Below are positions 18,301 to 51,556 of a stretch of DNA of 64,000 nt, in pieces. The stretch's first letter is position 1, and the number at the start of each line of letters is the position of its first letter. The notes below the pieces were generated by a model. That model searched no databases. It was not told the DNA's origin and was given only the letters and a program-made list of their open reading frames with translations. A program made the position numbers and the translations under genes. The stretch comes from Mya arenaria (taxonomy: Eukaryota > Mollusca > Bivalvia > Myida > Myidae): positions 10,824,887 to 10,888,886 of the forward strand of contig NC_069135.1 of assembly GCF_026914265.1 (NCBI RefSeq). The letters run 5' to 3'.

Positions 18301-18845
18301 CAATGATTACCGAGCAAACCTTCAGGAATGTAAAACCTCATCTCCGATGTTTACCGAGCATACCTTCAGGAATGTAAAACCTCATCCCAAATGTTAACCG
18401 AGCATTCCGATAGGAATATATAACCTCAAACCAAGTGTTTACCGAGCATACCTTCAGTAATGTATAACCTCACCCCCAATGTTTACCGAGTATGCCTTCG
18501 GGATTGTATTACCTCATCCCCAATGTTTTGAGCATACCTTCATGAATGTACAACCTCATCCCCGATGTTTACCGAGCATACCTTCAGGAATGTATAACCT
18601 CATCCCCAATGATTACCGAGCATACCTTCAGGAATGTGTAACCTCATCCCCAATGATTACCGAGCAAACCTTCAGGAATGTAAAACCTCATCCCCGATGT
18701 TTACCGAGCATACCTTCAGGAATGTTAAACCTCATCCCAAATGTTTACCGAGTACACCTTCAGGAATGTATAACCTCATCCCAACCGTTTACCGAACATC
18801 TCTTAAGGATAATTTAACTTTCTCCCCTTGTTTACCGAATGTCCC
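12330..18845. repeat. 44-bp minisatellite array, part 1
   Basis: Well over 100 degenerate head-to-tail units. The consensus runs CTCATCCCCAATG, TTTACCGAGCATACC, TTCAGGAATGTATAAC (44 bp). Units at the left edge (to about 12820) are mostly 38 bp, lacking a TCCCCA hexamer; the 44-bp form takes over after that. A variant unit containing GAGCATTCCGATAGG recurs at about 13171, 13743, 14395, 15091, 15487, 16359, 17012 and 18400, which shows that multi-unit blocks were duplicated (two of the intervals are exactly 13 and 9 units). The many 60-119 aa open frames here are by-products: 44 is not a multiple of 3, so one frame cycles through all three, and unit substitutions decide where TAA appears. Confidence 0.95.
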
Positions 18846-23600: not shown

Positions 23601-26600
23601 TTGCCAGGATTTTTTTTCTTCTGTTTATATCTTTTCTAATATCTTTTTTTCTTGATATATTTTTAAAACTTGGCCATGTTAACTTATCACTTTGATAAAA
23701 TTTTCAGAAAAGTTTTATATCTAATTACCTTAACACACCCACATAATTATGGATCGGTAACCTGTCCCTGTTTTGAGTATGTAGATTTCTGAAGCTGTAT
23801 CCTATTCTTTTTACAGACGAGTGTTGTCTTGGGTACATATCAAATCCACAAATGAGTTGGAAGTGGAGAAGCCTGAAGGTTATAACCTTTCTGGCTCCAG
23901 TAACCTTGACCTTCATCGACACAGTTGGACATGTTTCTCGGGTTGAGGGTGTATCTATGCAGGTAGTTTGGAGATTTTCTAATCATAATTAAAAAGTCAA
24001 ACCGAGTAAAAGGTAATGACATAAATTATTTAAGGTAGCACACCCCTAATGGGCACCATTTTAAACTATGATCAGCTTGATAATTTCCTAATGTGTTTTA
24101 TTTCCTGGATTTAAAAAAAAATTTAAAAGAAATTTACTGTCAAATAACAATTTCATTTAAATTTGAATTACCCTACCCCCATTTTAGAATTGTCGATAAA
24201 AACGACATCACCCGAGAGACAAGAACAATCCTTTATTTAATTTATTTTTCAACATTTTGGTAATAATTTGGTCTCAGAGTAACAAGAAATATATTTGCTT
24301 TCAGAAATAATACATTATTGATCACATCACCAACAAATATAATCATACTGTACTGAAATAGCCATATGGTATTTCAATTTTAACATTCTGTTTTGACCCC
24401 ATAAAATTGAAACATTGATGTTTCAGAACAAAAATGACAAGTTCTAGAAATACTCCTGACCTGTTCTTTGTTAATAATTATCTTTAATCTTTTGGCAACA
24501 TTATGCCAAAAGATCAAAATGTTTTACTGTCTCATTTAAAAAAAATAAAGTTTGTAATTCCCAACCACCTATTTCTTTCCGTGCCTGCAAGTTATAAAAT
24601 CTTTACAGAAGCTAATATTTATGTGTAAAAATGAATTTAATTACTTTTTAATGAAAATACAAACTAAACTTTTGTAAAAAATGATAGCTAATGAAAACAA
24701 AGAAGAAAAATATAACAAAAAATAGTTGTGCTTCTTGCTGGATTCGAACCACTACCTTGAAACACTCAAAAGATTTGTAGTCCTGTGCTTAACAACATAG
24801 GCTTAAGCATTAAAATTGAAGAGTTTCAAGTGGAGGTTTACATTCTAGGGGTGTGCTACCTTAAATACCATATGAGGTTATGAAGGGTCTTTTAATGTAT
24901 AGGAGCACAGCAATATTTTTTTTTTAATAAATGAAAAGTTCTTCTGATGAAAGGTAATTGATTTGAAATGAATCTAATGAATCATTCCCATATTGTAATG
25001 TGTGTAAACGGTGTTACTGGCAGCTGTGATACCGCTATGTGTTTTAATATATTTCAGCCCTGCTTTAATCCGGAGGTGAACAAGAGCTTGGACTATGTGT
25101 GGCTGAACATATGGTCCACAGTTGGGTACCAGTTTAAGCGTGGAGATATTGTCACTCTCAGGTGATACACCCTGTCACATGATTTAGTAGTTAGGGCCCT
25201 TCAATAACATGCCGATGCCTTAAAGTAATCTCCTAGCTTGTATGTTCATCCATTTGTTTTATTAGCTCTACTGGCCAAAGGCCGGGAATATCGAAAAGTC
25301 TGTTCCCGGTCGTGAAAATGCCTTGAATTTTGCAATTATAGGTTAAAATCGGGAAAAAGCCGGGAAAAGTACTAAAATTCGAACCGTCTTGGGTACGAAA
25401 CTAGTAAAAGTAAGTAGTCTCGATCATCTAGACGCTTGCATCTGACACTGTTCTGTATTAAATTGACTCTGATCAGAGCAGCTGAATGAGCGAGACTAAG
25501 AAGGTTTCCGTTACCACATGCAAGTGTTTATTTGTCATAGTAGCTGTGTCTGCACTGCCGTCTGCATTTAAAAGTTATTTTAAACGAGAAATTGGCTGCA
25601 GTTTGTCCGGATTCGCTTTATATACGCTGTCAGTAAGAATCATGGGTACTATATACAACGATCTTCTTAATCTACATTATGCTAATGATCATGGATATTA
25701 GCGATCTCTGCATTCATTGAAATATATTTTAATATGTGAAATTGGCCCTAGTTCATTAAAATAAACTTGAGATACGCTGTCAATAACCTACATGAATGCT
25801 AATTGCAATGATCTCACTAGTGCTACACAGCCTGACAAATATTTGCTATTCAAGTGTGAATCTATGAATGATGACTGACCTTGCTTGTATTTATAGACAT
25901 TGAGAAGACCACAGTTCTTTGGCCAGTAGACAACATAATAGTTTTAAACTTGTGCAAAAAAGTCACTTATTTTGCATTTTCACCCATGGTTGAAGCGAAG
26001 AACATGGATTGATGAACATTGATGTTCAGATATAGCTGAATTGCATGCTGACTGATGCAAGTAGATTTTTTTAAAGAGAGTTAAACTCTTTTAAAATGAC
26101 ACTGGATGTTATGAGTTAAAGTTGTTCAATAAATGTTTAAAGCTTCACTCTCACAGATTGAACAATTTGACTTTTACTTTTGTCTTGGAACGAGCCAATT
26201 TTGGCAAAAATCCATCAAAACCAATTATTTAAGACTGCTGGCCAAAACATAGATCACAGATATTTATATTTAAGATCAAAAACATCAATTTTCTAACAGA
26301 AATATGAAAATCAGCGATCTGATCTTTTGTTGGCAATCTTTTATCGTTGGTTTGCAGATATTTATGTCAAAAGTTTATCTATCTAAGACAACAAATGAAA
26401 CAAGTTGTTAAAATAGTATATCTATGAGATTGCAGCTTTAAAAAATGTTCAGAAAGTAAGTTTTTGTTCAGAGAGTAAAACTTTTTTAATGTGATATTTG
26501 ATTATATTTACCTTAAGCATGCATTTATCCACCAATTATGAAAATTGGTATTGTATACGGAGATCAACCTGCACAAACCATGCTGGCTGATCAGGGTCCA

Positions 26601-29600
26601 CACTGTTCAATGCACAGATAGTAGTTAAGCCTTAAAGTTTCCAAGTAGCAAATACAAATAGCCTAGACCCTGATCATGCCAGCTGATCCGTGTCTACACT
26701 GTTCACAGAGGCCAACAGTATTCAGCATGCTAAAGGTTAATCATGTTGTTCAATTAATGTCTAAGAAGTTCAGAAAGTAAAAGGTTTTGTTTTTGAGAAT
26801 AAAACCCTTGGAAAATGACATTTGATGTTATTTAACAAGTTGTTAAATGTTGAAAATGTCAAATAAGTCTATTTTTAGCAAGAGAAATTGTTAACAATAT
26901 TTCACTGAAATGTTTCGTTGTAATAACTGTGAAAAAGGTTGAGAGAAAGTCTGGAATTCGCAAAAAAACTTGGAAAAAGTCTTGGAAAAAGTCTGGTATT
27001 TTACTTGCAGAAAAATGTGGGAACCCTGTGTAAACAATTGCTTGTGAACATGATACAGTCTTCAGTTTTGATTGTATCTGATGAAACTTGTACATTATCT
27101 AGATATCCATTAGAGCTCGGTTCCTTTCAAAAACCAGCCAGATCCGCCCATGCATGCCTAGATTATGGCCCTTGAAAGTATAAAAAATGCTATTGTGTTA
27201 ACACTAGCTTGTGAACACGATACAGTCTTCCGTTTTGATTGTATCTCGATGAAACTTGTACAATATTTAGATATCCATTAGAGCTCAGTTCCTTTCGAAA
27301 ACCTGCCAGATCAGACCATGCATGCCTAGATTATGGGCATTGAAAGTATTAAAAAATCAGTTCGTCTGTAAACAATTGCTTGTGAACATGATATACAGTC
27401 TTCAGTTTTGATTGTATCTCGATGAAACTTGTAAAGTATTTAGATATCCATTAGAACTCGGTTCCTTTTGAAAACCAGCCAGATTTGCCCATGCATGCCT
27501 GGATAATGGGTCTTGAAGTATAAAAAAAGCTATTTTAAGCTATGTCTATTTTTAGGCAAGACTACATGAGCGAAGTCTATTTTTAGCCAAGTGTACATGT
27601 AAATTCGCAATTGCTTGTGAAGGTTTGTTCAAATTATGCCCCTGGGATCAACCCCCCCCACTGCCTTGGGTGTCACAATTTTCCTAGAGACTTATTTACT
27701 AAATATTTTCAAAATCATGAGTACAGTTTTAAAAGAAAATATTTCTTACCCTCGGATTACCTTTACCTGGCACATATTAAAATAGTTCATGCAACTAATC
27801 TGCTTACAACACTTCCTGTCCTCAGATGTTGAATGTGCAGCGTTTTCAGCTAACCAAAACACTAAAAGTGAACTATATATTTGTTGCCTATTACTCAAAC
27901 GTACATGCTCTGGATTGAAAATGACCACAAGAGCCATGCCAGTAGAGCATAGGCCCTTTTGGGCCTCTTGTTTTTCTTAATAACCTCTTAATTATTGATG
28001 ACATCAACTTTCAGCTACATACAATTAATCAAATAACAATATGATATTCTATGGCAAGTTACATAACTAATGAAAAATTGTTAGATTAATGTCCCTTTGT
28101 TATCAAAATTCAAACTTGAAAAGTAGGAATTCAGGGATTTTCTATCACACTCACGAGGCCGACTATCGGACTAATTTCCAAAGCAAAATGGAAGATATTT
28201 TTATACGATATTTTTTCCCAATCTTCAGAAAAAAATCCAACTCAAAAGTCTTTTTACCTGAACTGGTTCATTCAACATCCTAATAATTTATGTGATGTAA
28301 AGATTTGGGGATAATTGAATTCAGAAATCATCGATTTTTATCACATTCAGAGATCAGTATGAAATGTTATCTGGCATGATTTATTGCAATGGATATTTAC
28401 ACTCCAAGGATTGATATTTCCGCTGTTTTGGGTCTTTTGAAAGGGAAAAGAAACTAACATTTAATAATTTTCTCTTTCACAGGAGACTGAAAAGCTTTTT
28501 CTTTTAACTGTAAAATTTCCCAATTTCGGCTTATTTGCGACATAAATTTTCCCAAAATGTCAAGGGTCTTTTTTCCAAAATGGTAAGAAAAAGCCCTGGA
28601 ATTGAATGAGACTTGAAGCATCAGTGTTCCATAATGTGAAAGTGTTTGTAATACTCTGACGCAAGTGTTAACAATTGCCTCAATTAATATGAAACCAATT
28701 TTTTTTTTTGAAAGATCACTTTTTAGCAATAAGTTGAGTTTTAGCAATTTTCAGGAACCATTACTGTTGTCCATTGTTCCATGAAAAGACCCTGTTGGCA
28801 TAATGTGTATCAGGAAATGAATTAACTTTCATCAGGACTTTAAAAGCTATAGATGGAAGTGATTGAAACTTTAAGCATTAATTGATGCTGTTTATACACT
28901 CTAATAAAATCAAACATTGTGCAAGTTGATCCCTAAGTACAATTTTCTCTGATTTAAACAAGTATGCTGTAAAAGCATACAAGGTACAAATGATTTTTAT
29001 AAGAGATTGGTGGGTGGCAATTTGTAATCATTTGAAGAACCAGGATTTGATCCTATCACCATAGAACCCAAGCAGGTAGCAGGGTTCCTTCCTCTCATAT
29101 TGACACTTACCTTTAAACACAATGTTTGTTTATGAGCACCTTGCTTTAATTATATGATAAGCTTATGGTACTAAAACAGTGGTATAGAATAAATGACAAA
29201 ATGAAACATTTCAGTGTAAATGATCTGTGAGCAATATAATTTTTACATAGCCCAAATGGCAACTATCACATATTGCTGAGGAAAGATGTATACTGTTTGT
29301 TTTATACATAACATATTGTCCTGTACATTATCAGAATGAAGACAATTTGTACTTGTATTTACGAAGCATCTGAAGAGTTATTTATTTCATCAAAATCTTA
29401 ATATACAGATTCTCCTGATTTGTTTAAATCATGGACTGAAAATTTGTTTTAAGTTTCCTCATGAGAGTGAAATCCAACCTGCAATGAAGGGAATTAAGTA
29501 GGAAACTTTATTGAACTAAGCTGTAATGCTATTTATCTCTCTTTAGATGTGTCTTTCTATCGAAGCGCATTAGAAGTGTATGAAGTATATTAGAAATGGA

Positions 29601-32600
29601 CTGTAGATTGGATGAAACTATTATAAGCAATAGTCACTATTTGGTCACTATTAACTAATAGTATTGGTCACTATTAACTAATAGTATTGGTCATAAGGCC
29701 TAAAAATACCTTTGGTTCAGGTTACCCTACCTTACCTACGAAAGAGGCGCCGACAATACTGTGTTTTAGCATATAGATGAAAATAACGTTCCTATATAAC
29801 CAAATATTTTATTTTTTAAAAAACCTACCTACCCTACCTGTTTTTGAAAAGAATGTAACTTTAACCAAACCATTTTTTGGGCCTTATCTATTCATAGTAT
29901 TGGACACTTTCAACTTAAGGCATTGCTCACTCTCTACTCAAAATATTGGTCACTATCTACTACAATCATTGGTCACTATCTACTAAAAGTATTTATCATA
30001 CTCTTGTAGCTAGTACTAAAGTAACTATTTACTCAAAATATTGATCAAGTGTTGTTCACTATCTACTTAGTGCATTGTTCAATATTTACTAAACTAATTG
30101 ATCACCTTTTACTAAAAGCATTGGTTACTATCATCTTAAAGCATTGGTCATTATCTGGTAATTACTAAAACATTGGTCACTATCTACTAAAAGTATTGGA
30201 CTCTTTCTGGTCAATATCTACAAGAAGTAATCTACTAAAAGCTTAAGTCACTTTCTTTTAAAAGTAATGGTCATTACTCACTAACTACTAAAAGTGTTGG
30301 TCACTATCTACTTAAAGCATAAGTTAAAGCATTGGTCATTTTCTACTTAAAAGTACTCTCTATTTAGAACATTGATGACAGTATTCTTAGAGTATTGATC
30401 ACTATCAGGTTACTATCGAACAATGTTTTGTTCGCTATCAATTAAACGCATTGGTCCCAGGTCACTGTCTCCTAAAATATTGACCCCTATCTACTCAAAG
30501 CTTTGACGACCTTCGACTTAAAGCATTGGTCTCTATCCACTAAACTCATTGTTTTATATGCACTTAAAGCATTGCTTACTATCTTCTCAAAGATGGTCAC
30601 TTTCAACTAAAAGCACTGGCTACTACCTATTTACAATAATGGTTTATAACTGCTTCAAAATGGTCACTATCAACTAAAAGCACTGGCTACTACCTATTTA
30701 CAATAATGGTTTATAACTGCTTCAAAATGGTCACTTTCAACTAAAAGCACTGGCTACTACCTATTTACAATAATGGTTTATAACTGCTTCAAAATGGTCA
30801 CTTTCAACTAAAAGCACTGGCTACTACCTATTTACAATAATGGTTTATAACTGCTTCAAAATGGTCACTATCAACTAAAAGCATGGGCTACTATCTACTT
30901 ATAGAATTGGCTTATATGAAATAAAAGCATGGGCTACTATCTACTTACATAATTGGTTTATACCTGCTTTCAGATGGTCACTATCTGCTGAAACCATTGG
31001 TCATTTTCTATTTAAAGCGTTGGTCAATTGGTCACTATCTCCTGAACGTATTTGTCACTTTCTACTTAAAGCATTTGTCACTTTCTACAAAATGTATAGG
31101 TTACTATCGACTAAAAGCACTGGTATCTTCTTTAGTATTTACTATCTTATAAAAGTATATTTCAAAATATTGGTCCCTATCAACTTATTAAAAGCATGGG
31201 CCGCCATCTACTATCAGGTTGCCATCTAAGCGTTGGTCTTAGAAACAAGAAGACTTCATAATAATATTTAAGTTACACTAACACTGAGCAAAATACCTCT
31301 GTTGCAAATCAACAACAGCAGGACTGGACACCTTGTGATCACTTGGTAATTTCATTTTTGTTCAAATAAAGGAAATGGAATCATTTACATTGATATAATT
31401 AAGATTACATATCAATGCTTATTTAAATAAAATTAACTTCTCGATCATATTCACATTTCGGTACTATGCATATCTGTTTTTCATCTGTTCTAGTGTCTTT
31501 GTTTTGTTATATTAGTCTAAAATAATCCGATTATGGAAATTTTCTATGCTCTTTAGTTTTGCTTGGACAGGTTTTCTTTTCAGCGATTTCCTTTTCTCAT
31601 TATGGTCCCAATGCCAAAAGTTAGTTATTTCCAAATGTTAAATAACTTCCCATTCTGAAATTATATTGGAAGAAGTGTTATTATTTCATCAAAACGTAAA
31701 TGCTAATGCTGTGGAAGCTACTGAGTTGACAGTAGTGTTTGAGCCAAGCAATACTAGTATGTTTTAATAAAGGGGTAATTATGAAATGATTCACTTTATA
31801 CCAAATATTTTGAGGAAATAAGTTTCATTGTATTTTAAAAATATAATAAAATCTTCATGGGCAAGCCCTGCAGCATAAGGCTTGTAACTGATTTCAGGCT
31901 ACAGACTACTTTTTTCCCTATATATTTCAATGTAACAACTTCAGACTGACAATAAAGCTATTTAAAGCGTTTACATATATGATTACCATATATCTTACAA
32001 TTCATTTCAAAGCCAATTGATTTAAGATATGTCATGTTTTTCCTAAGAAAGTTCAAGCAATTTAGCAAGTTAGCAACATTTTAATCAAGCAGAAAATATG
32101 TCTGAGATGTTATCTTATTTTACTATATCATTGAATTTATCTGGTCTGAATCTAAAGTATAGCAATGATTGAATGATTAAGCTAGACTTACCTTTAAAGA
32201 ATGGAAGGCGACGGTTGATCATAATTTCATCCAACACAAAATTTTCGTGTTGGATGAAATTAATACTTTGCATTACTCAGATTGTAAACCTAAAGTAGCA
32301 TTCTGGTTCTTAGATATACAGAGTGCATCCTGGACCACATCCAGGCACTTGGCAGTTAGTTGTAACGTACATTCAGAATGATTTACTAGTTTATACCTTG
32401 ATTCACACCATTTTTATTACACGTGTGTTCTATTAAAACAGATAGTAGCAGGTAATGAATGTAATTGATGCATTAGCTACACAATTATTTTTAGTTAAAA
32501 TACTGGTACAGAGATGATTTCAGAATGATTTATTCTTGTTTACCTTATTTTATTTTACACATCATTTATTACTTGTGTGTTAGATTATATGTTCTTATTG

Positions 32601-35600
32601 TTTAACGATTTTAATGAATCAGACATTTTTTTTTCATCTTGCCGAGTTATGTCTGTGAAGAATAATCCCTTGGCTCCGGAATAAAGTCCCCCCCCCCTTT
32701 GTTCTTAGCAATGCAGCATGCTAGAAACATCTTAAAAGCAAGCTCAGTCATTAATATCGGTCTTTATTAGAGCTGTTTACAGTCCGGAATAGGGTAATAA
32801 ATAGGCATTTAAATGGTCTGATGGCTGTGATATATATTGCCAATGTTTGCATTATTTAATGTTCCCCGCAGGTAACGGGGAAGCTGATAAACACCAACAT
32901 CTGTGAAGGTGTTTCTCCGCATTGGAACTATTACAAACGAGCAGGAAAACAATTGCTACTTCAGAGTATGAGGCATTTCTTTATCACAAGTTGTTATATC
33001 GTTCAAGATGAATAGCATGAGGATTTACCAATGGCAGGGAAACTCATAATGGCTTTTCCAGTTTGTTTTCTTGATATACTGTGTCAGGGAGTTTGACTTG
33101 AGCTAAATATCAATTTTGCGTTTCAATGGCTTCAATAGAACTTGATATAAACTGAAATTCATATAAACTGTGTTTATGATAGTGTAAGGGTTTAAAGTGA
33201 CATATATGATATAATAAATGCCACTTCACGCACTTTTACAAATGTGCCTCAGTGCAAAGCTGTCTTTTATATCCATACTCAAATTATTATTAATTATCAT
33301 ATTATATCATGTTTCATGTCTGTCATATTTAGACAGATAACTGTTCTCATGTAATGACAGTTGTATGTTACACTATGATAGACAAGACAGTAAATTTGGA
33401 CTTAAAACTTTTTGAAATTATTCGTTTATTGGTTCCACTCTTGTAACAAACGCGTTGAAGTGTTATTTCGTGGACTAGTATATAAGTGACAGAAACTTGG
33501 TATCGAATATTTTAAAGCTTTGCCCATAATATTTGTTATTGAACATCACTAATTTTCGAACAGCTTGCAAATGTTTTAATTTAATGAAAATTTACCCCAG
33601 ATCATACATAAGTGATATATGAACATGGCGATAAACTGAGCTAATTAATTTAGCTTCAATTTTGAAATTAAAATCATGGCTGTTTCAGAGTCTGTTACAG
33701 ACTTCGATGAATAATTCATAAACATTATATTATATAATTTCTCCAGAGACCCACACAGTATTCATAGTTCGACACAGACCACTGATTTTATCTTGTCACG
33801 GGTTTATTTCAATAAAGTTGTGTTACTGACATTTACAATAGTGGTGGAGATTTGATTGTAAATTCTGGTACACTATATCAATATTATTATTTCAGATTAT
33901 TGTATTTTCATAACCGCTAAGCACGAGAAACGATGAAATATTGAAATTACCCGTACACTCACAATACATTATTACGTCAAATCAATAGGCCATCTGCAGC
34001 TGCTTGTCCTGCCTAATGCTACAGGAGAATAGGTGTGTAAATGTTATTTAAGTTCCATTATTCCCATTCAATCACGTTATATGAAATGCCATAGGGAAAT
34101 AATTTCGAGCAATAATGACCTGACATTACATTGTTTGCAGCAGAATGTATTTCATTTCCTGATATTCTAAAAGTATGTGTTTTTCATTTGTCCATTTCAC
34201 ACAACTGAGGAATTAATTATAGTGATTTAACAGAAAAAAACACTTGCGCCCATCAAATAAAGTCAGCGTTGTATGAACAACATGTGTAACTTCATAGTTT
34301 GTGTTATATATTTTTATCATTTTATTTGTTATTACAGTTGATGATTAATATTAAGAAGCAATTTTTAGAAGCTGTAAATGGTTTAACTGTCATGAAAATC
34401 AAGGGTAGTATAAAACGTGAAGAAGAAATATATACATTGTTTTCTAGATACACAGCTTCGGTTGCGTGTTTAAGTGTTTTTATAGTCACTCCTCAAGTGT
34501 ACCTTGTTCGTTTCAGAACATTTTATATATCCATGTCAATAGTTCATTAATATTCATCGAAGTTGGATTTGCTTGTATGTGTGGAAAGAAGCGATGTTTT
34601 GGAAGAGCAGAGAGGTGTTGAGAGCGGATTGTACACGTTCTGAAGCGGAATGTGTATCCCCTCTGGCTCGTCCCCTGCCCCATATGGCAACTCATAATCC
34701 TTGTGGATACGAAACTTGCGCACTAGTGTCACCATACACGCGATTGCCATGGTTATTCCAAGAGCTGTACACACACCTGCTATAATTTGCTCGCTCACTA
34801 TTTTCTTTATTGCACTTTGGTATAGATATTTGCTCTTGGTTGCAAACGTCTCACAGTCTACTTTGTAATATTCAGTATCGTATACATAGACTAGACAAAA
34901 CTCATAGTTAGTGCCTGGCTTAAGATGCGTCACCTTGTAACTCCTGTACTGGGGATCAAGGGGTAAAATTCTGTATGATGACTGAGTTTGATTGTCTACT
35001 CCCTTAATTTCCTTATAATGCAGCTGATAGTCTGAGATCATTGAGTTGTGTTGGGTTCCATTCCATGTGAGAGAAATATAGTCGACCGAGAGATTCAGCA
35101 GCACGAGCCTCACGGGCTTGTTTGTGACGGTGACCTTTGTGGAGCTGATGTCAAACCCTACTTCATTCCTCGCTTTACACTCATACGTACCACTGTCTTC
35201 AACACTGAGAAAGCGAACAACTAAATTATACTTGTCTATGATTTCTATTTTTCTACTGGATGTACTGTTTGAGATTTCTGATCCATTAGGCAATAGCCAT
35301 ATCAGCTGTGGTGAAGGAATACCATATGAGTGGCATTCAAGCCGGAGCTCCTCGCCTAGACCAAGTGTGTAATTCTCGTGAAATGACGGAAGTGTCACTG
35401 GAGCACATACTCTTGAAAACTGACTCTCGTCAACTTCAGGTAATGACAAGCCAGTGACATTTATAGGGTAAGCACATTTGATGAAGTTTGGATGACTAAA
35501 AAAAGGCTTACTAAAATTATGTTCTTTAGCCTCCTCCACTAGGTCCCGGATCCAGAGAGCGTTGCAATCACAGCGGACGGGATTGTGATACAGGTGGACA

Positions 35601-38600
35601 TCCTGGAGGCTTGGAACGGATTGAGGCAGTCCCGAGGGAAGTACCGACAACCTATTGTTATGGAAGTACAGGGTCTTGAGCTTGGGGACGTTTTTGAATG
35701 CATTCCCATCTATGAACATAAGCTTTGGATTGTCGTGCATCTCCAGATTGGTTAGATATTGCATGTTTTGAAACGAAAACTTTTCCACAACTGTCAACTC
35801 GTTCATAAAGCTAAGAGTGAGAGAAATTACACTGATGTTGTTGAAATCTCCAGGATGCAATTTATGTATTAGGTTTCCATTCAATGAAACTTTCTTCAGT
35901 AAATAAGTTGATTGCAGTTGTATTGTTGGCACAAATTGTAGGCAATTGGTACCCAGATCCAGTACAAATAGGCTTTTCAAAACATTGAATGCAGAGTGTC
36001 CAATTCTTCTGATTTTGTTATTTGATAAATTAAGTAAATTGAGGTTTTCGAGATTTTGAAATGAGTTCATTTCTATTTGCACAATTTCATTATGAGATAA
36101 ATCGAGTTCTCGTAATTCATACATGGAAGAAAACCATGTGGAAGTAACAGTTTTCAGGTGATTATGTGATAAGTCTAATGATTTCAGGTTTTTCAAACCC
36201 AAAAGACTTTCTGAATACATATTTTCTAGGTCATTAAAACTCAGATCAAATGTTAGTAAATGATCCAATTTGTTGAATGTATCATTTGGTACAGTTTTAA
36301 GTGAATTTCTTTTTAAGTTCAAATATTTCAATTGAGGATATTGAGCAAAAAATCGAATACCGCTAATACTTTCCAATGAACTATTTGACATATCTAAATA
36401 TAATAGAGAATCTGATTTTGACAATAATTTAATTGTTCCAAAACTATTATTGGCGATGAAGAACACTTCGGTGTTTTCTGGCAGGCTTGAAGGAGGTGAT
36501 GTTAATTGTTCCCCAGAGCAGTCCACAGTGTAAAGAAACTTGTTTGATGGAATATTGTGGCGAGCGAGGGAGAGCTGTCTTTTATCACATGTACACTTCC
36601 TCGGACACTGGCTTGTAAACCACGACCTTGAACTTGAATCGTTCCCAACAATGTTGTCTTTTGCAGCAACACCCGTGATACCGGTAAACGTTATGGCACA
36701 CATGTATCCTAAGATCGTGAGAAGGTACATTTGCACTTCCATAATTACTTTAATAAATCCCACTGGATATGTATTTGTTGAACCATTTTGAATATTTCCT
36801 TCTCCTACAAGTATATGACTGGCACCATTATTATCAACTGAATGTCTGTTTCCCTAATCATTGACTCACTATTGCTCCAATCCCATAATGTTAAGGAAAT
36901 AAATTCATTCGCTTTTTGTAATCAGATGCGTTAAAAAGGAACATTTTCCGTGCACTGTTAATTCCCGGTATTTTCAAGGTCTGGTTCTCGCAAAACAGGT
37001 TCTCTGTAAATTCCTGCTAGGCCCTGGAAAAAAAAGATATGGAACATTTAATTAATTTCCATTGTTTCTATCAGATATATTACTGTACAGCTCATTTTGT
37101 TTGTAATTGTTGGAATGATGCCATATGATGGTCTTGTAATTTTAATGAGTGAACCGTTCTCAGCATCATTTTATGACAACAAATTCCAGTTGAAAATTGC
37201 GCGTGCATGATCAAAATTCTAGGAGAAGTATGGTCAATGTTTTGTAGCCTTTTCAGAGCTGGTATACAATCTGTTATAAGTTGAAACTTGAAACATTCTA
37301 TGTCTTAATCTTGGTGTCGAATTCTTACGAGCTAAGAAAAGTTAAATGGTGTCATAATAATAATTTCGTTGCCCATCTGCTATCTTGTAAGGGTTTTATA
37401 ATTAAATTTTGGTTTTACATATCTGCAACTGCTATTTTAGTAACTGCACTTCATAGATGTTTTAGATGTTGGTTGTGGTTGTTATTATAATTTCAAAGTA
37501 TCATTTAACCCAAATCTAATTAAATTTATGTGTATTCGTGATAATTGATAGATTTATACTGAATTCTTGTTCCCTTATTGTGATATAATTTTGAGCCGGG
37601 GAGATTTTAAAGATGGTTTCTTTAAAAGTGACACTATTATTCAAAATCGAAATTAACACTTGTATAACAAATATAGATGTTGACTGATAAACCTTTAACT
37701 ACTTACTGAATAATACATTTATCGATAATATGAATTACTGATAACAACATTGTAACCGTGCATTTAATAGCTGAAAAGGCAACAATATTAAATCGTTGGT
37801 GAATGCTAGAAGATTTACTGCGATCTACTATCATCTCATATGGTAGAAATACCGTGTTTTCTGCGCCTTTCTTTCAAATTAAACTCGTTATCCTTCATAA
37901 GAATCATTGTTTTCGACTTTTATTTATCCTTTTTGGTATATTAAAACTATTACATTAATTGTGGTAAATCGTTTTTTGGGAGTTAGAGTGCATCTTTAAA
38001 TAAGATGTTTTATATGTAGAATAGAAGGTAACCGATTTTGAAATTATTTTGAGTTCATCTTTTTCTTTGTTATTATTTGTTTCTTAAAAGTATGTGAAAT
38101 GTGTACTCTATACAATATGTTAGTTTCTAGCTTTAGTGAACCTTTTGAAAGTGATCCGTTTCATCCGATTGGTATTCGCCTTATGTATCAGTAACACACA
38201 GAAGGTATTGTTTCTATATCTCTTTGCAAGCTTTATTTACAACGTGCATTTAAAGAAGTCTAGAACACAACACCTACTCTTTGGGTAAAAATAAAACGCT
38301 TGAATCTTAATAAAAAAACATGATATTATTTTAATCGTTATTCGTCCAATACAATACAACAAACGTTTTGATGAGTATACGAAATACGTTTTAGGACCCC
38401 TTTGACAGGAAAGTATTTCTTAGACATTCTACTGCTTGTGTTTGAACGCAATAATATATTTTGTAATTCTTTTATTAAACTTGCTAATAACAGTCAAACC
38501 ACTGCATTTATCAAGTCTGCTGAAACTATGATCACGCGTTTACTATGTTTCTTAATAGTTCTTACACAAGTTATATATTTGTTCAAGTCTTACCATATTA

Positions 38601-41600
38601 CGCAGATGTTGAAATTTCTTCTGTTTTGTGAAAGTTTAATATCAATTTATACTTTTTTCTCTTTCTGTGTTTGAATTTATTAATTCTGTTGTATTTTAGC
38701 GTTGTAGTTATTTCCTTCTTTCTGTGTTATTCCTTTCCAATTATTCCAATATGATATAATCCAAAAACAAACAATTAATTCATCATTGTGGGTAAAGCAT
38801 AGCGTAACACTTTCCTGCTGCTAAAACGTATTTCCAGAGCATCGATATTGCATTGAGTTATCAGTTCCATCCGTTAATCTATAAATTGTTCACTAAATGT
38901 TTGCACTACCCTTGAAATATCAAGATATCCTCGTTCATGCGGCAGCATCTTTCTCTGTCGGCAATGTTTTCAATACAATACAGCTCTCGACAATATTCAG
39001 TCTAAAAGATATGTTTTGTTTGCTCACATTTGTTATTGGAACTCCACTAGTTCGTATTCCTATTGGCCAAGATGGAAAGAGTACTTGGGTTTAGAAGTGT
39101 CAGTCAGTATATATTGAATCATATATTTTGTGCTACAGATGACTTGGTTTCTTGACAAATGGTCGATGTTAAGGAACCCTTATTTAATTTCCTAGAGTAA
39201 ACGCTTCCAGAAGCGATGTATAGAAAACATATTTTGTCTGAAAAATAGTAAGAACATTATTTAAGTTTGATTATATTGTTAAGTTGGCCAACCAGCACTG
39301 GAACAATCCATCTTATATATCGACTTCTAACATCCCAATTGAAATTACTATTAAATGGTAATGTCTAGACTTTTTAAGCTACAAAATTTCCATTGGTTAT
39401 GTTTAATGTCTATTAAATGTCCTCCATACTGGAACTTATTTATACTATCCACGTTTTAAACGATTTATGGGTGTTTGTTCAAATAAAATGAAAATAGTAA
39501 TTTGTTCTCACTTTTAGAGCCAAATATTTAGCATAATCACTTATAACCATTCAAAACCATGTTTTCACTTCATTAGAGACTAAGAGCCAAATCCATTCTC
39601 AGACGGAAAAAGCAGGAATTTAATGTCTCTATCAAGTACTGTTCTGTTAACATGGGAAATTTAATGTCACTTCTAACGATACGAAGATTAGGAAACAAAA
39701 GAAGCAGAAAGTGTGATTAGATTTTCCCTGAGATCTGTAATAAAAGTTACACTTTTTCCTTTATTGGTTATCAATATTTAAACAGCCGTGAATTAAAATG
39801 AAGCTGGTTTCTTTTCGATAGCTGTTGCCTTTGTTAGGTTCAGAAATTGCTCTTTATAGTTGTTCTGAATAAATTGAAGTAATGCGAACTCTGCTGTCAA
39901 GCATTTCTAGGCATTATACTTATGTATAACATTTATAGTTAAATCGAATTGGGATGATCTATTAGTGTCTTCATATGTATGAAATGTACAGGTTTATAGC
40001 ATGCTTTTACAAATGTGTTAGTACTTCCTGCTCTAAATATTTTGTCATCGTATTGCCTTTTCAATTTACACACATATGCGGCTTTTGATTAAAAATAAAC
40101 GAGGTTTACGCTCCTGTGCCTTTCCCCGTTATATTTTACTAGTCACTAGAAAAAACATTAAATCAAATTTACAAAAGAAGAATATCTTACCATCCATAAA
40201 ACAAATCACAAGGTAAGATTGCAGTTCCAAGCACTGTTGCTATATATTCCATTGCATGCGTACTGATAGATGCTGTGTATTGTTGCCAAATGATTAGAAA
40301 TGTGTAAAGAAACACTTTGAAGATGCACTGTTCATCGGGAACGTTTTGCAAGTAAAATGAGCAATAAAGACAGAGCATCTGTTATCAATAAATGCTAAGG
40401 CGAAGCATTTGCAACATTTCTTTACAGATGCTATATACTACAACATCAACTGGATATTTGAAAACTCCATGCATATTGAAAAAAGAGGAATCGCACTAGA
40501 AAAACCTTTCAAGAGCGTTCATTGTAAACCATTGTAATCAAACATATTTAAATGATACTTGGTACACGAGTTGTCAGAGACAATATGCACACGGGCTAGC
40601 TTCTATGGTTGTGGAGCGTTGCTGGTTATCGGACTGAAAGGAAAACAATTCTTTTCAAGGACATGTTACATCAGTTCATTAGTCAGTCCAACTATTATTA
40701 AACCACGATTTCATTTTACAAATGTCTTACTTCATATAAGGGACGTACACACTGCGGTCTTATTTGTAAGGGGACGTATAGTTTATTGTGATGCAATTAC
40801 CATTGCGGTCAATGGAGTCGATCAAATATATGCTGTATACTTTATCCATTTGGATATGTTTATGTATCCAAAGGATATCTCTTACAGAATGTATTCACTT
40901 AATAAGTTTTGTTAGTAATCTAAAGAAATCCCGAAACACTGAACATTTGTTTGTGTCCTCTAAATTCTGTGGTGAGATTGGGCAGTTGTGATATATTACC
41001 AATGGTAACGATTCTATTACCAGGCGTTGACCCATGTCTGGGCACTGCCCATCTGAGAACGCCATTGGATACATGGTCACCGGTCAAGTCATTCTCGTAG
41101 ACGTGTGCCTTACAGTTGCTGATTTATCATAGTCTTGTTTGATCATGTACGATTTTCCTTTGTTACCTCATATAATGACCTTCAACTTGTGTAATATTTC
41201 ATTTTGATTTGTGGCGTTTATTATTTTAAATGTTAGGGAACATCTTATTAACAACTCTGAAAGGTTATGATTTCCTGTCCTGATTCTTGGTTCCATTGAA
41301 AGCCCTTTTCCTTTAATGTAATCTATACATGAAATGAGTTGCTATATTGTTTTCTAGTGTTTGATTTTGAATAAGTCTCCTTAGCTCAATACCAACACAA
41401 TTGACAATTCAGGATCTGAACAATGTTGATAAAGCTCTACAGATACAACGGTCATTAATTAAGCTGAAAACTGTTGGGTAATCGATAGCAATTATTATGT
41501 CATTCGCATTTTCATTTGTATTGTTCACTAGCTGTGTGGATTATTGATACAGTTTATATCACGTTACCTTTATTGTTCAATACACGATATAAAAACTGTC

Positions 41601-44600
41601 ATTGTATTGTGTTTGCTGTTTCGTAATTAATGGATATCTTGATATACTTCAGTTGTTACGTGTTTGGAAGAAACACTAATAGAAACTTTGTCCTGTGTTG
41701 CGACATTATTGCGTTTGATGGATGGCAAGGTATATATTATTGTTTTTTATTGCTTTTACATCAGGGAAGAGAGATATCATGCCATATTGAAGTCTGCTCT
41801 AGGCATACGTATTTACAATGCCACGTAGTTGTGGGAAAGGCTATGGTATCTCTTTTTTTTGAACATCATCTTGTAAAATCATGATAAAGCTATGATAAGA
41901 AACTAATTTGAAATGCATAGGGAACAGAGTATCGCGGCTTGTTAAAACATTTCCAATTTATGTTATTTTCATCAAGCCCTTGACATTTTATAAAATGATA
42001 AGAAGAATCGTTATAGGGAATGATATTCGTTATTATGTTCACTAGTTTCAATTGCAAAATAGCACAAAGAACATATTTCACAAAGTTCATTGTTCTTCAA
42101 TAAATACCTGTTATTCTGCACGTAGGGATTAAACCTTTTAAACCCGTTATAGATTCCTTAATCAATGGTGAATAATTTATCGTCTCAACAGCCACTGTAA
42201 ATTTTGAATATACGGCAATTGTGATATTCTATAAACCAGCTGTTATTTTATTTCCATCTTTTGCACACTAAATTAATCTTACAATGATATAATGAATATC
42301 GGAAACAAGTAATTGAAAGAATAGTTTACCATTAATCTTTCCATGCCGAGTACGAGAATAACAGCACTACTTGGGGAACTCAATCGCTCACAACTTTCGA
42401 AATGTTGTGTCATAAATGTTGGTCAAATTATGTTGCGGAATGTTGAGATAAACATAATTATGTTTTTCTGTTAGATATTTGTTCTAAAATACTAAAACAT
42501 GTATGATGGAAAATTATACAGTTATAACCACGGTTCAAATAAGTATTTGAAAAGTCATTTAGTCGATCAGTAAACATTCAAACATTTAACAAAGACCTGG
42601 TTTAGGGGCTCATGGTACAAGGCTTAACATTCATAGATTTGGGAATGCCTTGATAAGGCCAGTCGAAGGCCACGACCAAAATCCCGTTCCAGCTATCGAA
42701 AAGAAACATGGAACGTTTATGTACTTGATATTGGTTTTAATAATTGTCGACTTATATCCCTTGTTCGACAGACTATTTCTCACAAGCTAGCGTTTGGTCT
42801 GCAGAGTTTTCGTTGTTTTCGAAATAGTTTTAAGTAAGGTTAAGATAATTAGCGAAGAGTTTTGTTTCCGCAAGTAGTATGCATAATCAGCATTATGTTC
42901 AATGAATGATAAACATAGCAACTTTAGTATGTATTCCATAAGCGTTAACTATTTATATTACTTCATGCGCAAAACATACTCGATAGCGCCACCACTACTC
43001 GACAGCGCCATCACTAGGGCAACAGCGCTACCACTTTGATAAATATGTGCATTTTTCCTTTTTAATAAGTGCTTATTAGTTTTGTTGTGTTCCGGCATAG
43101 GTACTTTATATAACATTTATGTTTGCATGCGTGAGAATGTTCTTACGGGGGTGTAAACACCGAAATGTACTTGCTATGCAATCAGATCCCAAAATATGCA
43201 CAAGTCTGATTCGGGAGAAAAGCTCCTGGCACCACAGTTTGCACAATATTGAAACGAAATAGTAACCAGCCTACAGTAAAATTGTTCTTACACGGTACCA
43301 CATTCTCCGATTTTCGAAATATGTCCATTAAATGAAATTACCAAATAAAATATAAATCATACTCAAGTTTGTCCATGTATTCATAGGGCAACACTCCACC
43401 ACCGAAGTGTCGACAGCTCTTTTTCTTTGCACCACCGTAAAGTGGTGGAGCTGGCGTTTACAGGTCGTGTTTTAGAGTCAAGGGATATACATTATAATGC
43501 TTGGTGGAAGGGGTTACATTAATCGGTTATCGAGCTTATAAAGCAGGAAGTATTCCAAGGCGGTACCTTACAATCCTTGATAAACACCTCTAGTTATATA
43601 TCTAGTGTAGTATATACTATATTAAAAAACTAGGGATGTTTATCAAGGATTGTTAGTTACCGCCTTGAAACGATCAGTAAAATGTCAAATCGACGTCATT
43701 TTGCTTCTGACACCAAAGCAATTGGTTAAAACGGACATAAAAAGAAGTATTTCTTCGGTTTTTGCGGTTTGAGGACTAGTGTAAAATAGTCAAACAATCG
43801 TCTTTGAGATTCATCAAGCAAATCTAGTAAAGTCAGTGATCAGAGGTTTGGTGCTCATAAAGCGAACTGTCTCCTCAGTTTCAACGAACATCGCTTTAGA
43901 CACGAACGATGCTTTGAGTAGCAGAAAATATTCTAAAGAACATCCAAGTCGCTGTGAAAATAAGTTTGAATGTCTGGTTATGTGATTTGTATACATCTGT
44001 TTGCGGTGTAATTGAATATGGTCCTCCCTGTATAGAATGGCTCTTTGCTTTTTTCTGGTGTCACTATACAGTGGTTACTTTTACCCCATTTCACTTTTTT
44101 CGATATTAGTAATTAAAATTCCTGAAATGGAGTCACTGTTAACGATATATTTTGTGCGGAGTCACTTTTAGCCTTTCTCTGTAAAATCATTTGTCAATAT
44201 CCATTGCCCGGGTCAATGCATTGTTATTCTTTAAAACCAAATACGCGGTTGTGTGGCACTGGGTTCTATGGACACACGTCTAGTTTGGATACAGAGAGCC
44301 AAACTACTCGACTGCATGTATATCATATCTTAATCATTTTGTGAAACGCATATTTATATTAATCATTTCCATTTTCAGGGCTCCATATAATCCAAAAAAC
44401 ACTGTGATCAAAAGGATAATTGCATTGGAAGGAGATTCAGTTAGGTAAAAACAATCACATAAAACATTGGATACATATGCAAACTATCTTTTTTGTGAAT
44501 AACATATCGTTGTAAGGGACTATTAATTGTAGTTGGTGTTGGAAACACCGTAAAGTTAATGTGTTAATGCGTCATAACATTTTGATGCTCTTGAGTGCAG

Positions 44601-45326
44601 TGTTGATTACATTTATTTTCTATGCACTGATTGGCTGCCTCAGACTTACTACAAATTCCATACAAAACACATTGATTAGTTAGCGTTTTAACCGGAGTCA
44701 TTTTCTCAAGCATTATCTACTCTGTTTTTGTGTGTATATTTCAGCCACGTCAACAGTGATGATGTTTGGGTACGTGTGCCGCGGGGGCAGTGTTGGGTTG
44801 AGGGGGATAACCCACGTTTCAGCAAAGACAGCAATTCATACGGACCAGTAAGTTTCCACCAATAAACACCAGTCATGAGTATTACAGCTGGCTTATAAAC
44901 ATAAATATGCATGCAAAGTGTAAACAACGCGTTATTGTCAAACGTTTGACATTCAATATATATATATCTGAATGAAATTTGGAATAAAATATCTTGACTA
45001 TAAATTAAGGTTTATTTTAGTTCAGTATATTTATTATTTAAGGTGACTTTGGAGTTGATTCAGTCCCAACCGACCCGCATTATGTGATATTATCATCTTA
45101 AGGACTTCTATGACAAACAAAAGCTATCCTTGTTTTCTCTATATTCCAGGTGCCTCTTGGGTTGATTCAGGCCAAAGCGACTCACATTGTGTGGCCCCCA
45201 CGTCGCTGGTGCAAACTTAACTCATCCAACAATGAATACTCACTGCCTCCTGACAGGGTGATGCCAAATCATATAACTAGCAGCCACAATGACTATAATG
45301 GGAGACCCTGTACAACTGTGATATAA
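20661..45326 (+). CDS. IMMP2L: mitochondrial inner membrane protease subunit 2
   Basis: Clear coding exons, all GT-AG and in phase: 23852-23962 (exon begins 23817), 25058-25161, 44379-44444, 44745-44847, 45150-45326 (TAA). They give 186 aa; human IMMP2L is about 175. The protein is an S26-family signal peptidase of the inner membrane that removes sorting peptides from intermembrane-space proteins. An N-terminal hydrophobic segment (about residues 8-22) precedes the nucleophile motif VEGVSMQ (Ser35). KRGDIVTL follows at about 65-72, then the general-base lysine motif IKRIIALEGD (Lys83), and WVEGDNP and DSNSYGPVPLGLIQAKATHIVWPP, as in the family. The catalytic Ser/Lys pair is intact. An optional first exon 20661-20679 (ATG, donor GTAAGT) joins in frame and would add 18 residues. 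The 19.2-kb intron 25162-44378 hosts an antisense LRRN gene and many repeats. Confidence 0.93.
21880..23620. repeat. tandem repeat of about 130-160 bp
   Basis: Landmarks such as ACCCAGGAACTTCATACTTG and GATCAGTAGGTCAAAGGTCA recur at 22935, 23095, 23228, 23373 and 23531, spaced 133-160 bp. It lies in the intron before IMMP2L coding exon 1. Arrays with this sequence flavour are common in bivalves and other aquatic invertebrates. It is interrupted by the element at 21999-22822. Confidence 0.75.
21999..22822. mobile_element. 824-bp TIR element with TA target duplication
   Basis: The left terminus CAGTGGAAACTCACTAAACC is the exact complement of the right terminus GGTTTAGTGAGTTTCCACTG. TA dinucleotides flank both ends (21997-21998, 22823-22824). 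CCGGTTTAGTGAG-type subterminal motifs recur inside both ends. No transposase frame remains. The CAGTGGAA start, TA target and repeated subterminal motif fit a non-autonomous pogo/Tigger-like element of the Tc1/mariner group (inference). It is inserted inside a unit of the tandem repeat: joining the flanks restores CATACTTCATACTTGG. Confidence 0.85.
24034..24860. mobile_element. 827-bp TTAA-flanked MITE
   Basis: The termini GGTAGCACACCCCTA and TAGGGGTGTGCTACC are perfect complements flanked by TTAA at 24030-24033 and 24861-24864. The interior is AT-rich and non-coding. A minus-strand tRNA-like piece with a perfect B box (GGTTCGAATCC) lies near 24740-24800. Sits in the intron between IMMP2L coding exons 1 and 2. 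Confidence 0.85.
26141..26437. mobile_element. 297-bp TTAA-flanked MITE
   Basis: Flanked by TTAA at 26137-26140 and 26438-26441. The termini AGCTTCACTCTCACAGAT and TCTATGAGATTGCAGCT are imperfect complements. No coding capacity. Its sequence resembles a TTAAAGCTGCACTCTCACAG-type element that I recall as frequent in bivalve genomes. It differs from the other two TTAA families in this window. Confidence 0.75.
26540..26735. repeat. interspersed fold-back repeat
   Basis: GCTGGCTGATCAGGGTC on the left is answered by GACCCTGATCATGCCAGC on the right, each followed by CACTGTTC. This gives a partial hairpin typical of a dispersed element. No coding potential. Confidence 0.45.
27029..27540. repeat. 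three tandem units of about 170 bp
   Basis: Units start near 27029, 27199 and 27367 with TGTAAACAATTGCTTGTGAA-like sequence. Each contains GATATCCATTAGAGCTC and CCATGCATGCCTAGATTATG. Non-coding, within the large IMMP2L intron. Confidence 0.75.
27600..27975. repeat. probable interspersed repeat
   Basis: The stretch contains AATTATGCCCCTGGGATCAA at the left and ends with GGCCCTTTTGGGCCTCTTG, a palindromic tail that I associate with dispersed invertebrate repeats. Family not assignable by eye. Short open frames here are not credible genes. Confidence 0.35.
29630..31230. repeat. degenerate GGTCACTATCTACT tandem array
   Basis: Roughly 20-35-bp units built on GGTCACTATCTACTAAAAGC and ATT, with much length variation, run for about 1.6 kb in the IMMP2L intron upstream of the nested gene. 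A short matching stretch reappears at 49111-49250 in the duplicated region. Confidence 0.8.
30594..30861. repeat. four homogenised 67-bp units
   Basis: Units start at 30594, 30661, 30728 and 30795, with the next boundary at 30862: an exact 67-bp period. The units are almost identical (CACTGGCTACTACCTATTTA, then ACAATAATGGTTTATAACTG). They sit inside the older, more degenerate array, so this is a recent local expansion. Confidence 0.9.
32223..32261. repeat. perfect 15-bp inverted repeat (hairpin)
   Basis: The arms AATTTCATCCAACAC (32223-32237) and GTGTTGGATGAAATT (32247-32261) are perfect complements around a 9-nt loop. No neighbouring feature explains it. It may be the tip of an interspersed element. 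Confidence 0.6.
34321..34326 (-). promoter_or_regulatory. poly(A) signal of the LRRN-type gene
   Basis: TTTATT on the plus strand reads AATAAA on the minus strand, about 220 bp after the stop codon. The pseudogene copy keeps an AATAAA at a similar distance (51849-51854). Confidence 0.5.
34547..36742 (-). CDS. LRRN-type receptor, intronless, nested antisense in IMMP2L
   Basis: Single exon, 731 aa. The open frame extends 7 codons further to a GTG, but the first in-frame ATG after an upstream stop is at 36742, so I start there. Order: signal peptide (about 1-28); LRRNT with Cys46, 50, 52, 75; 12 leucine-rich repeats (about 92-375, such as LDLSHNEIVQI); LRRCT with NPVRCDC (Cys391, 393, 423, 446); one Ig domain (Cys470, Trp482, DSGTYEC Cys522); one fibronectin III domain (about 541-635); one membrane helix (about 653-674); and a 57-residue tail with tyrosines, ending SNFDEY. 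Twelve LRRs + Ig + FN3 + TM is the LRRN/NLRR family design, and length fits (vertebrate about 708-716). LRFN and LRIT proteins have fewer LRRs. Expected role: cell-surface adhesion or signalling in neurons. Orthology to the LRRN group is likely; assignment to one vertebrate paralog is not possible. Confidence 0.9.
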   Translation of the reverse strand: MEVQMYLLTILGYMCAITFTGITGVAAKDNIVGNDSSSRSWFTSQCPRKCTCDKRQLSLARHNIPSNKFLYTVDCSGEQLTSPPSSLPENTEVFFIANNSFGTIKLLSKSDSLLYLDMSNSSLESISGIRFFAQYPQLKYLNLKRNSLKTVPNDTFNKLDHLLTFDLSFNDLENMYSESLLGLKNLKSLDLSHNHLKTVTSTWFSSMYELRELDLSHNEIVQIEMNSFQNLENLNLLNLSNNKIRRIGHSAFNVLKSLFVLDLGTNCLQFVPTIQLQSTYLLKKVSLNGNLIHKLHPGDFNNISVISLTLSFMNELTVVEKFSFQNMQYLTNLEMHDNPKLMFIDGNAFKNVPKLKTLYFHNNRLSVLPSGLPQSVPSLQDVHLYHNPVRCDCNALWIRDLVEEAKEHNFSKPFFSHPNFIKCAYPINVTGLSLPEVDESQFSRVCAPVTLPSFHENYTLGLGEELRLECHSYGIPSPQLIWLLPNGSEISNSTSSRKIEIIDKYNLVVRFLSVEDSGTYECKARNEVGFDISSTKVTVTNKPVRLVLLNLSVDYISLTWNGTQHNSMISDYQLHYKEIKGVDNQTQSSYRILPLDPQYRSYKVTHLKPGTNYEFCLVYVYDTEYYKVDCETFATKSKYLYQSAIKKIVSEQIIAGVCTALGITMAIACMVTLVRKFRIHKDYELPYGAGDEPEGIHIPLQNVYNPLSTPLCSSKTSLLSTHTSKSNFDEY
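37053..42300. repeat. intron block duplicated at 53.08-58.12 kb (parent copy)
   Basis: This non-coding intron segment begins TTCCATTGTTTCTATCAGAT and is collinear with 53078-58115. Matches include TTCACTAAATGTTTGCACTA (38889 and 55070) and AGCAATTATTATGTCATT (41490 and 57421). Identity over a 198-bp sample (38897-39094 versus 55078-55275) is about 89-90% by hand count. Together with 33.19-36.8 kb and 42.7-45.4 kb it is the parent locus of the duplication. No coding region is supported inside it. Confidence 0.85.
37626..37995. mobile_element. TTAA-flanked MITE, second copy
   Basis: 370 bp between TTAA sites at 37622-37625 and 37996-37999, homologous to 18850-19365 but shorter. The duplicated block lacks it: 53605-53608 has a single TTAA at the matching place. 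Confidence 0.8.
42982..43035. repeat. three short GACAGCGCCACCACT-like units
   Basis: Three successive copies of about 20 bp (AGCGCCACCACTACTCG and close variants). Minor low-copy repeat. Confidence 0.5.
43553..43671. repeat. 119-bp fold-back element
   Basis: Two arms of about 43 bp (43553-43595 and 43628-43671) are near-perfect complements; core ACAATCCTTGATAAACA versus TGTTTATCAAGGATTGT. They flank a short TA-rich loop. One arm plus 3' flank (GATCAGTAAAATGT) recurs at about 54165-54245, inside extra DNA of about 0.6 kb in the duplicate, so this is a dispersed element. Confidence 0.7.
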
Positions 45327-48884: not shown

Positions 48885-49084
48885 CTCACTCACTCACTCA
48901 CTCACTCACTCACTCACTCACTCACTCACTCACTCACTCACTCACTCACTCACTCACTCACTCACTCACTCACTCACTCACTCACTCACTCTCACTCACT
49001 CACTCACTCACTCACTCACTCACTCACTCACTCACTCACTCACTCACTCACTCACTCACTCACTCACTCACTCACTCACTCACT
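48885..49084. repeat. TCAC tetranucleotide microsatellite
   Basis: About 50 copies of TCAC with one phase slip (ACTCTCAC) near 48990. The open frame of Leu-Thr-His-Ser repeats is an artefact. It lies between the exon relics and the inverted pseudogene. Confidence 0.95.
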
Positions 49085-49510: not shown

Positions 49511-51556
49511 GATGAAGTGCAAATGTACATTCTCACGGTATTAAGATACATGTGTGCCATTATGTTTACCGATATCACTGGTGCTGCAGAAGACGCAATT
49601 GCTGAGAACGATTCCTCAAGTTAAAGGTTGTGGTTTACAAGCCAATGTCCGAGAAAGTGTACATATGACAAATGACAGCTCTCCCTCGCCCCCTCGCTCG
49701 CCACAATATTTCATCAAACAAGTTTCTATACACTGTGGACTGCTCCGGAAAAAAACACATTTAACAGCTTGCCTGAAAACACCGAAGTTTTTTTCATCGC
49801 TAATAATACATTTTGAATATTTAAATCATTGCCCAAATCATATTCTTTATTATATGGAGATATGTCAAATAGTTCATTCGATTTTTTGCTCAATATCCTC
49901 AATTGAAATATTTGAACTTAAAAAGAAATTCACTTAAAGCATTATCAAGTGTTAACAAATTAGATCATTTACTAACATTAGATCTGAGTTTAAATGACCT
50001 AGAATATATTTTTTCTGACAGATTTTTGGGATTGAAGAACCTGAAATTATTAGACTTATCATTTAATCACCAGAAAACTATTGATTCCACATGGTTTTCA
50101 TCCATGTATGAACTACGATAACTTGATTTATCTCATAATGAAATTGTGCAAATAGAAATGAACTCATTTCAAAATCTTGAAAATCTCAATTTACTTAATT
50201 TATCACATAACAGAATCAGATTAATTGAACACTCTGCTTTCATGGTTTTGAAAAGTCTCCTTGTTCTTGATCTGGGTACCAATTATCTTCCATTTGTGCC
50301 AACAATAAAACTGAAATCAACTTTTTTACTGAAGAAAGTTTCATTGAATGGAAACCTAATACATAATTTGCATTCTGGAGATTTCAACAGCATCAGTGTA
50401 ATTTCCCTCACTCTTGCCTTTATGATCAAGTTGACAGTTGTGGTAAAGATTTCTTTTCAAACCTGCAATAACCAATCTGGAGATGCACGACAACCCAAAA
50501 CTTATGTTTTATATATGGGAATGCATTCAAAAACGTTCCCAAGCTCAAGACCCTGTACTTCCACAACAATAGGCTGTCGGCATTGCCCTCGGGATTGCCC
50601 CGGGCCGTTCCAAGCCCCCAGGATGCCCACCTGTATCACAATTCTATGCGCTGTGATTGCAATGCCCCTTGGATCAGAGATTTGGTGGAGGTAGCCAAAG
50701 AACACAATTTTAGTAAGCTTTTCAGTCATCCAAACTTCATCGAATGTGCTTACCCTGTAAATGTAACTGGCTTGTCATTACCCAAAATTGACGAAAGTCA
50801 GTTATAAAGAGTATGTGCTCCAATGATACGTCCATTTAACGAGAACTAAACTCTTAGATTATGGCGAGGAGCTCCGGCTTGAGTGCCACTTAAAGGGGCA
50901 CCATAACTCCTATGGCTCTTGACTAATGGATCAGAAATCTCAAGCAGTACTTCCAGTAGAAAATTAGAAATCATAGACACGTTTGCTTTAGTTGTTCGCT
51001 TCCTCAGTGTAAAAGACTGGTACGTATGAGTGTAAAGCGAGGAATGAAGTAGGGTTTGACATCAGCTCCACAAAGGTCACCGTCACAAACAAGCCCGTGA
51101 GGCTCGTGCTGATGAATCTCTCGGTCGACTATATTTCTCTCACATGGAATGGAAACCAACACAACTCAATGAGTAGACAATCAAACTCACTCACCCTTAC
51201 TATAAGTGTTGTGTTGTCTATGTGTATGATACTGAATATTACAAACCAGACTGTAAGACGTTTGCAACCAAGAGCAAATACCTATACCTGACCGAGAAAA
51301 TCATAGCAGGTGTGTGTACAGCACTTGGCATAACCAGGCATAACCATGGCAATAAGGTGCATGCATGGTGACTCTAGTGCGCAAGTTTTGTATCCACCAC
51401 AAGGATTATGAGTTGCCATTTGGGGCAGAGGATGAGTCAGAGGGGATACACATTTCGCTCCAGAACGTGTACCAGCCGCTGTCCACACCTCTCTGCTACT
51501 CCAAAACTTCACTCCTAACCACACATACAAGCAAATCCAACTTCGATGATTATTGA
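49511..51556 (+). pseudogene. LRRN-type receptor pseudogene, inverted duplicate
   Basis: The whole reading region is recognisably the copy of the gene at 34547-36742 but on the plus strand. The start codon position reads GAT (49511). In-frame stops occur at 49622, 50119 (GAA to TAA) and 50805, and several frameshifts lie around 50470-50580 and 50820-51030. Part of the fibronectin III domain is deleted near 51170. The LRR block (49903-50460), the LRRCT (50583-50807) and the tail (51365-51556, ending SNFDDY) are still readable. Parent 5' and 3' flanks were copied too (49465-49510; 51557-52930), so this is a DNA-level duplicate, not a retrocopy. Confidence 0.93.

Follow-up and report, generated by a model that had tools for sequence, protein, structure and literature searches.

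The host gene

The stretch of DNA analysed (the window) comprises 64,000 nucleotides of Mya arenaria, positions 10,824,887-10,888,886 of contig C14, and coordinates without a contig name are counted from its first nucleotide. Its plus strand carries a gene for IMMP2L with five coding exons, delimited by tblastn with a reconstructed human IMMP2L sequence, by splice borders and by translation. Coding exon 1 (23852..23962) runs from the ATG to VSMQ, exon 2 (25058..25161) ends with KRGDIVTL plus two bases, and exons 3 (44379..44444), 4 (44745..44847) and 5 (45150..45326, with the stop codon) follow. All borders are GT/AG, the intron phases are 0, 2, 2 and 0, and the open frame encodes 186 amino acids. 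The second of these introns (25162..44378, plus strand), placed by splice borders and translation, measures 19,217 bp and has phase 2, as the initial annotation had it.

The sole Pfam match of the product is Peptidase_S26. This S26-type peptidase is nearer to IMMP2L (50% identity, 161 bits) than to IMMP1L (35%, 88.6 bits), both human sequences being reconstructions. The serine of VEGVSMQ and the lysine of VIKRII, which we take to be the catalytic residues of IMMP2L, are retained. Within the long intron, 29641-31088 is made up of repeated units based on 23 bp and resembling TTGGTCACTATCAACTAAAAGCA.

The nested LRRN gene

The same intron contains, wholly and in antisense to the host, a gene with a single coding exon (34547..36742, minus strand), which has 731 codons and a stop when read from the likely ATG. 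The open frame itself extends over 34547-36763, or 738 amino acids counted from a GTG. On this longer frame Pfam finds LRR_8, I-set (464-546) and fn3 (550-628). The layout is that of an LRRN (neuronal leucine-rich repeat) protein: leucine-rich repeats, one Ig and one FN3 domain, then a hydrophobic membrane stretch, identified by eye only, and a short tail with IPLQNVYNPL. The intronless LRR-Ig-FN3 gene first noticed on the minus strand between IMMP2L coding exons 2 and 3 is thus borne out in its coordinates, strand and intron.

Assignment of the nested gene to the LRRN family

When human LRRN3 was compared with the Mya genome, the top four of 65 matches were the four full-length copies of the nested gene, which scored 227.4-232.4 bits over residues 28-647 of 708; the next locus scored 94.9 bits. 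In the reverse comparison the clam protein gave 244 bits with LRRN1, 231 with LRRN2 and 230 with LRRN3, against 114 with LRRC4C, 105 with LINGO1 and 88 with LRFN5. The human LRRN1-3 sequences were reconstructions, not database entries; LINGO1, LRFN5 and LRRC4C sequences obtained in the same way match solved chains over nearly their whole aligned ectodomains, which lends some trust to the LRRNs as well.

In a tree of 34 rows, from which L034 was left out as a near twin of L029, a single group with support of 96/96 (ultrafast bootstrap/SH-aLRT) unites human LRRN1-3 with P0015 and with 12 rows that are mollusc or mollusc-like. A 22-row tree, made by removing 12 of these rows (Hetaerina, Dreissena, the extra copy B described below and nine Mya paralogs), supports the LRRN group at 83/94, which the program's verdict calls not firmly shown. 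In the larger tree the Hetaerina protein (P0076) is weakly joined to a long-branch paralog outside the LRRN group (78/87). Both trees were built without LRIT, AMIGO and LRIG. Human LRRN1-3 form a group of their own in both (100/100), so the clam gene is no closer to one of them than to another. Alternative placements of the ten mollusc-like rows with LRRC4C (AU p 0.0106), LINGO1 (AU p 0.0039) or LRFN5 (AU p 0.0076) were rejected.

Two features, defined after inspection of the alignment, point the same way: all 17 LRRN-type rows carry a repeat signature of LRRN type, 12 of the 17 carry a tyrosine motif in the tail, both are absent from the 17 other rows, and the clam gene has both. Three protein searches returned no vertebrate LRRN among the matches considered (the best 120 of 3348, the best 120 of 4489 and all 24 of the third). 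These were mollusc or LRRN-type proteins, P0015, the LRRN3-like damselfly protein P0076 and otherwise mostly proteins of chaoptin, LRIG, Toll and artichoke type, with three fish L1-type proteins in the third search. As far as sequence comparison can place it, the nested protein is an LRRN. The family tree that the initial annotation had put forward as a check thus places it inside the LRRN group and apart from LRFN5.

A second unit and additional copies

A second assembled unit with the same exon order and the same nesting lies 0.59 Mb away, at C14:10.257-10.278 Mb. The coding regions of the two nested LRRN copies are 99.68% identical over 731 codons, and the second unit may be the other, unmerged haplotype. 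On C13, C14 and C15, loci of the pair region and DOCK-domain loci are doubled at distances of 0.6-1.4 Mb, the pattern that haplotypes kept apart in the assembly would give.

Each nested LRRN gene is accompanied by a further copy, here called copy B, at distances of 149 and 136 kb. The one copy B region that was read (26 kb) contains a segment of about 10 kb of the host intron with LRRN and a degenerate last IMMP2L exon; a search near both B copies found no other IMMP2L exon. The LRRN frame is open in both. Between the nested copy and copy B, dN is 0.0485, dS 0.290 and dN/dS 0.17, averaged over both copies, which indicates that LRRN was under constraint although copy B has no intact host. A broken LRRN copy lies downstream of IMMP2L (49514..51554, plus strand), in the orientation opposite to that of the nested gene and with several stops and gaps. 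Its flanks are similar to those of copy B.

A predicted 5′ region of LRRN

Two peaks of non-coding conservation lie upstream of LRRN when the nested copy (A) is compared with copy B. One, at 36950-37175, includes a T-rich acceptor, TTTTTTTTCCAG; the other, at 38540-39040 and with 92-99% identity from 38740 on, includes a donor, GTAAGA, that begins at 38593 on the minus strand. Both signals are retained in A and B; in the broken copy the donor reads GTATGA. From the shared donor signal and the conservation between duplicates, the upstream peak is predicted to hold a 5′ non-coding exon of LRRN, perhaps its promoter or both (38594..39040, minus strand, the 5′ bound being provisional), spliced to a predicted 5′ untranslated part of the coding exon that would begin after the T-rich acceptor (36743..37023, minus strand).

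The segment 38540-39040, about 2 kb upstream of LRRN, is conserved above its flanks among three duplicates, the broken copy included. Its core is about 90-93% identical beside the broken copy as well, which argues against selection for LRRN as the sole cause of the conservation.

The pair in human and other vertebrates

The human IMMP2L/LRRN3 pair at 7q31.1 combines the same two gene families, on opposite strands and in the ordinally same intron. There too the LRRN coding region lies in one exon, and the intron that bears it is far longer than the 19 kb of the clam. The clam locus differs from the human one in that its LRRN gene is equally close to LRRN1, 2 and 3, in the extra and broken copies nearby and in having no adjacent DOCK gene.

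Passages in print place human LRRN3 inside the third intron of IMMP2L (PMC2913944; PMC4255718). The long human IMMP2L transcript is described as composed of exons 1a, 1b, 2, 3 and 5-7, and its ATG is located in exon 2 (PMC7105681). By count this gives five coding exons; LRRN3 then follows the second of them, the position that LRRN has in Mya. Provided that these papers number exons 1-3 alike, comparison by exon count therefore supports the view that the clam host intron is ordinally the one that bears LRRN3 in human, and the initial annotation agrees with print on this point. It had also supposed a non-coding exon 1 in both species. This stands for human, to judge from the printed ATG position; in Mya an AG that resembles an acceptor precedes the IMMP2L ATG, at 23815-23816, and suggests that the exon with the ATG starts at 23817 and is preceded by a non-coding exon.

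A study of human nested genes counts 91 different-strand pairs flanked by coding exons of the host, and its Table 1 records IMMP2L/LRRN3 in coelacanth and/or zebrafish as well and shows that frog lacks the host (PMC3933685). The same source treats the LRRTM genes in alpha-catenin introns, likewise opposite-strand LRR receptor genes long kept in long introns of unrelated hosts; that nesting is reported as early-vertebrate in origin, whereas IMMP2L/LRRN would be older (PMC3933685). A full-text literature search found no description of the IMMP2L/LRRN pair outside vertebrates in the texts it reached, and the tables of Irimia et al. (2012) may list it; the passages of synteny papers that were covered name neither IMMP2L nor LRRN.

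Origin of the nesting

The clam locus and the vertebrate IMMP2L/LRRN3 locus are very probably one orthologous nested pair, inherited from the common ancestor of molluscs and vertebrates, with the clam as the only protostome examined. Membership in the LRRN family, the antisense placement and the agreement in ordinal intron together make old nesting the best explanation. On these three points the claim that the pair predates the protostome-deuterostome split is supported, and the initial interpretation is borne out in part. In that common ancestor LRRN would already have occupied, in antisense, the intron that follows IMMP2L coding exon 2, and after the vertebrate genome duplications LRRN3 would have kept its IMMP2L host and LRRN1 and LRRN2 would not.

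That an LRRN gene instead entered the same IMMP2L intron in antisense twice, in the mollusc and in the early vertebrate lineage, is improbable, as had been argued from the outset. Convergence would have to repeat host, ordinal intron and strand. Under uniform placement a random gene falls in this intron with a probability of about 1.6e-5, or about 8e-6 with the strand, and 7e-4 coincidences would be expected over the 91 human pairs; these figures are a rough guide, since gene placement is not uniform. The human LRRN3 sequence used, moreover, matches no other Mya locus as strongly. Set against this, nesting is common among LRR genes, and a long intron offers a large target. An LRR gene lies inside 12 of the 19 different-strand pairs lost in frog or chicken, and the authors suggest that nested LRR genes stayed mobile (PMC3933685). 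Human LRRN1 is placed inside SUMF1 (PMC2913944), so LRRN genes can take hosts other than IMMP2L. It is more improbable still that misassembly or misnaming brought the pair together. The region is assembled twice, possibly as unmerged haplotypes, which would favour such an error; yet gene order is identical in both units, the exons and LRRN lie within 22 kb, and the family tests are concordant.

Persistence of the pair

If the pair is indeed orthologous, a nested arrangement of vertebrates, found in human at a locus associated with neurodevelopmental disease, goes back to the bilaterian ancestor. The pair also allows regulation and simple lock-in to be compared as reasons for lasting nesting, and copy B serves as a natural control within this clam. 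IMMP2L would be a subunit of a mitochondrial inner-membrane peptidase, and LRRN a receptor in the membrane that carries LRR, Ig and FN3 domains. LRRN would be transcribed from its own promoter, on the opposite strand, in the longest intron of its host. The pair would be hard to separate because a break in that intron would damage IMMP2L and, less surely, because control DNA of LRRN may be spread through the introns of the host.

Lock-in without any regulatory tie, in which the nesting is old but endures solely because a broken intron would damage IMMP2L and because gene order is slow to change, has a chance a little short of even. Copy B speaks for it: its frame has stayed open, with the dN/dS given above, beside nothing of IMMP2L but a degenerate last exon, so LRRN can do without an intact host in cis. 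Against it, the stretch of the same intron that copy B carries may have retained control DNA, and a table in PMC6906185 gives human LRRN3 the role of target in a single regulatory block whose bystanders are IMMP2L and DOCK4. Regulatory DNA as the tie that holds the pair together is a serious possibility, to which we give somewhat less than an even chance. Its fullest form can be put forward only tentatively: IMMP2L introns would have housed nerve-cell enhancers of LRRN from a time before the protostome-deuterostome split, with IMMP2L an obliged host ever since, and LRRN3 may mediate the effect of deletions within human IMMP2L introns that are reported for Tourette syndrome and further neurodevelopmental cases.

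Neighbourhood and other features of the window

The clam locus resembles genomic regulatory blocks, as described in PMC6906185, in that a regulated gene is kept with an unrelated neighbour; it differs from them in that conservation is known here from the nested pair alone and non-coding DNA has been compared among clam copies only. No DOCK gene lies beside the clam pair, and the conserved block is therefore the nested pair only. The DOCK-domain matches of the genome are on C13 and C15 and, weakly and with stops, at C14:44-46 Mb.

Of three L1CAM-tail matches, one is at C14:1.63 Mb and two are on C10, and SUMF1, with six of seven matches, is at C14:58.5 Mb. The presence on C14 of SUMF1, one of the three L1CAM-tail matches and the weak DOCK match fits one ancestral chromosome, weakly, because these families also have members elsewhere and the genes share no more than a chromosome.

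Upstream of IMMP2L, a 6.4-kb tandem array of units of about 44 bp (12405-18799) has a strongly negative GC skew on the plus strand. Downstream of the gene there is a CTCA microsatellite of 200 bp with 97% matches (48885-49084), and a 264-codon open frame on the minus strand (59491-60282) has a Pfam match to the Mutator-like transposase family PF20700.
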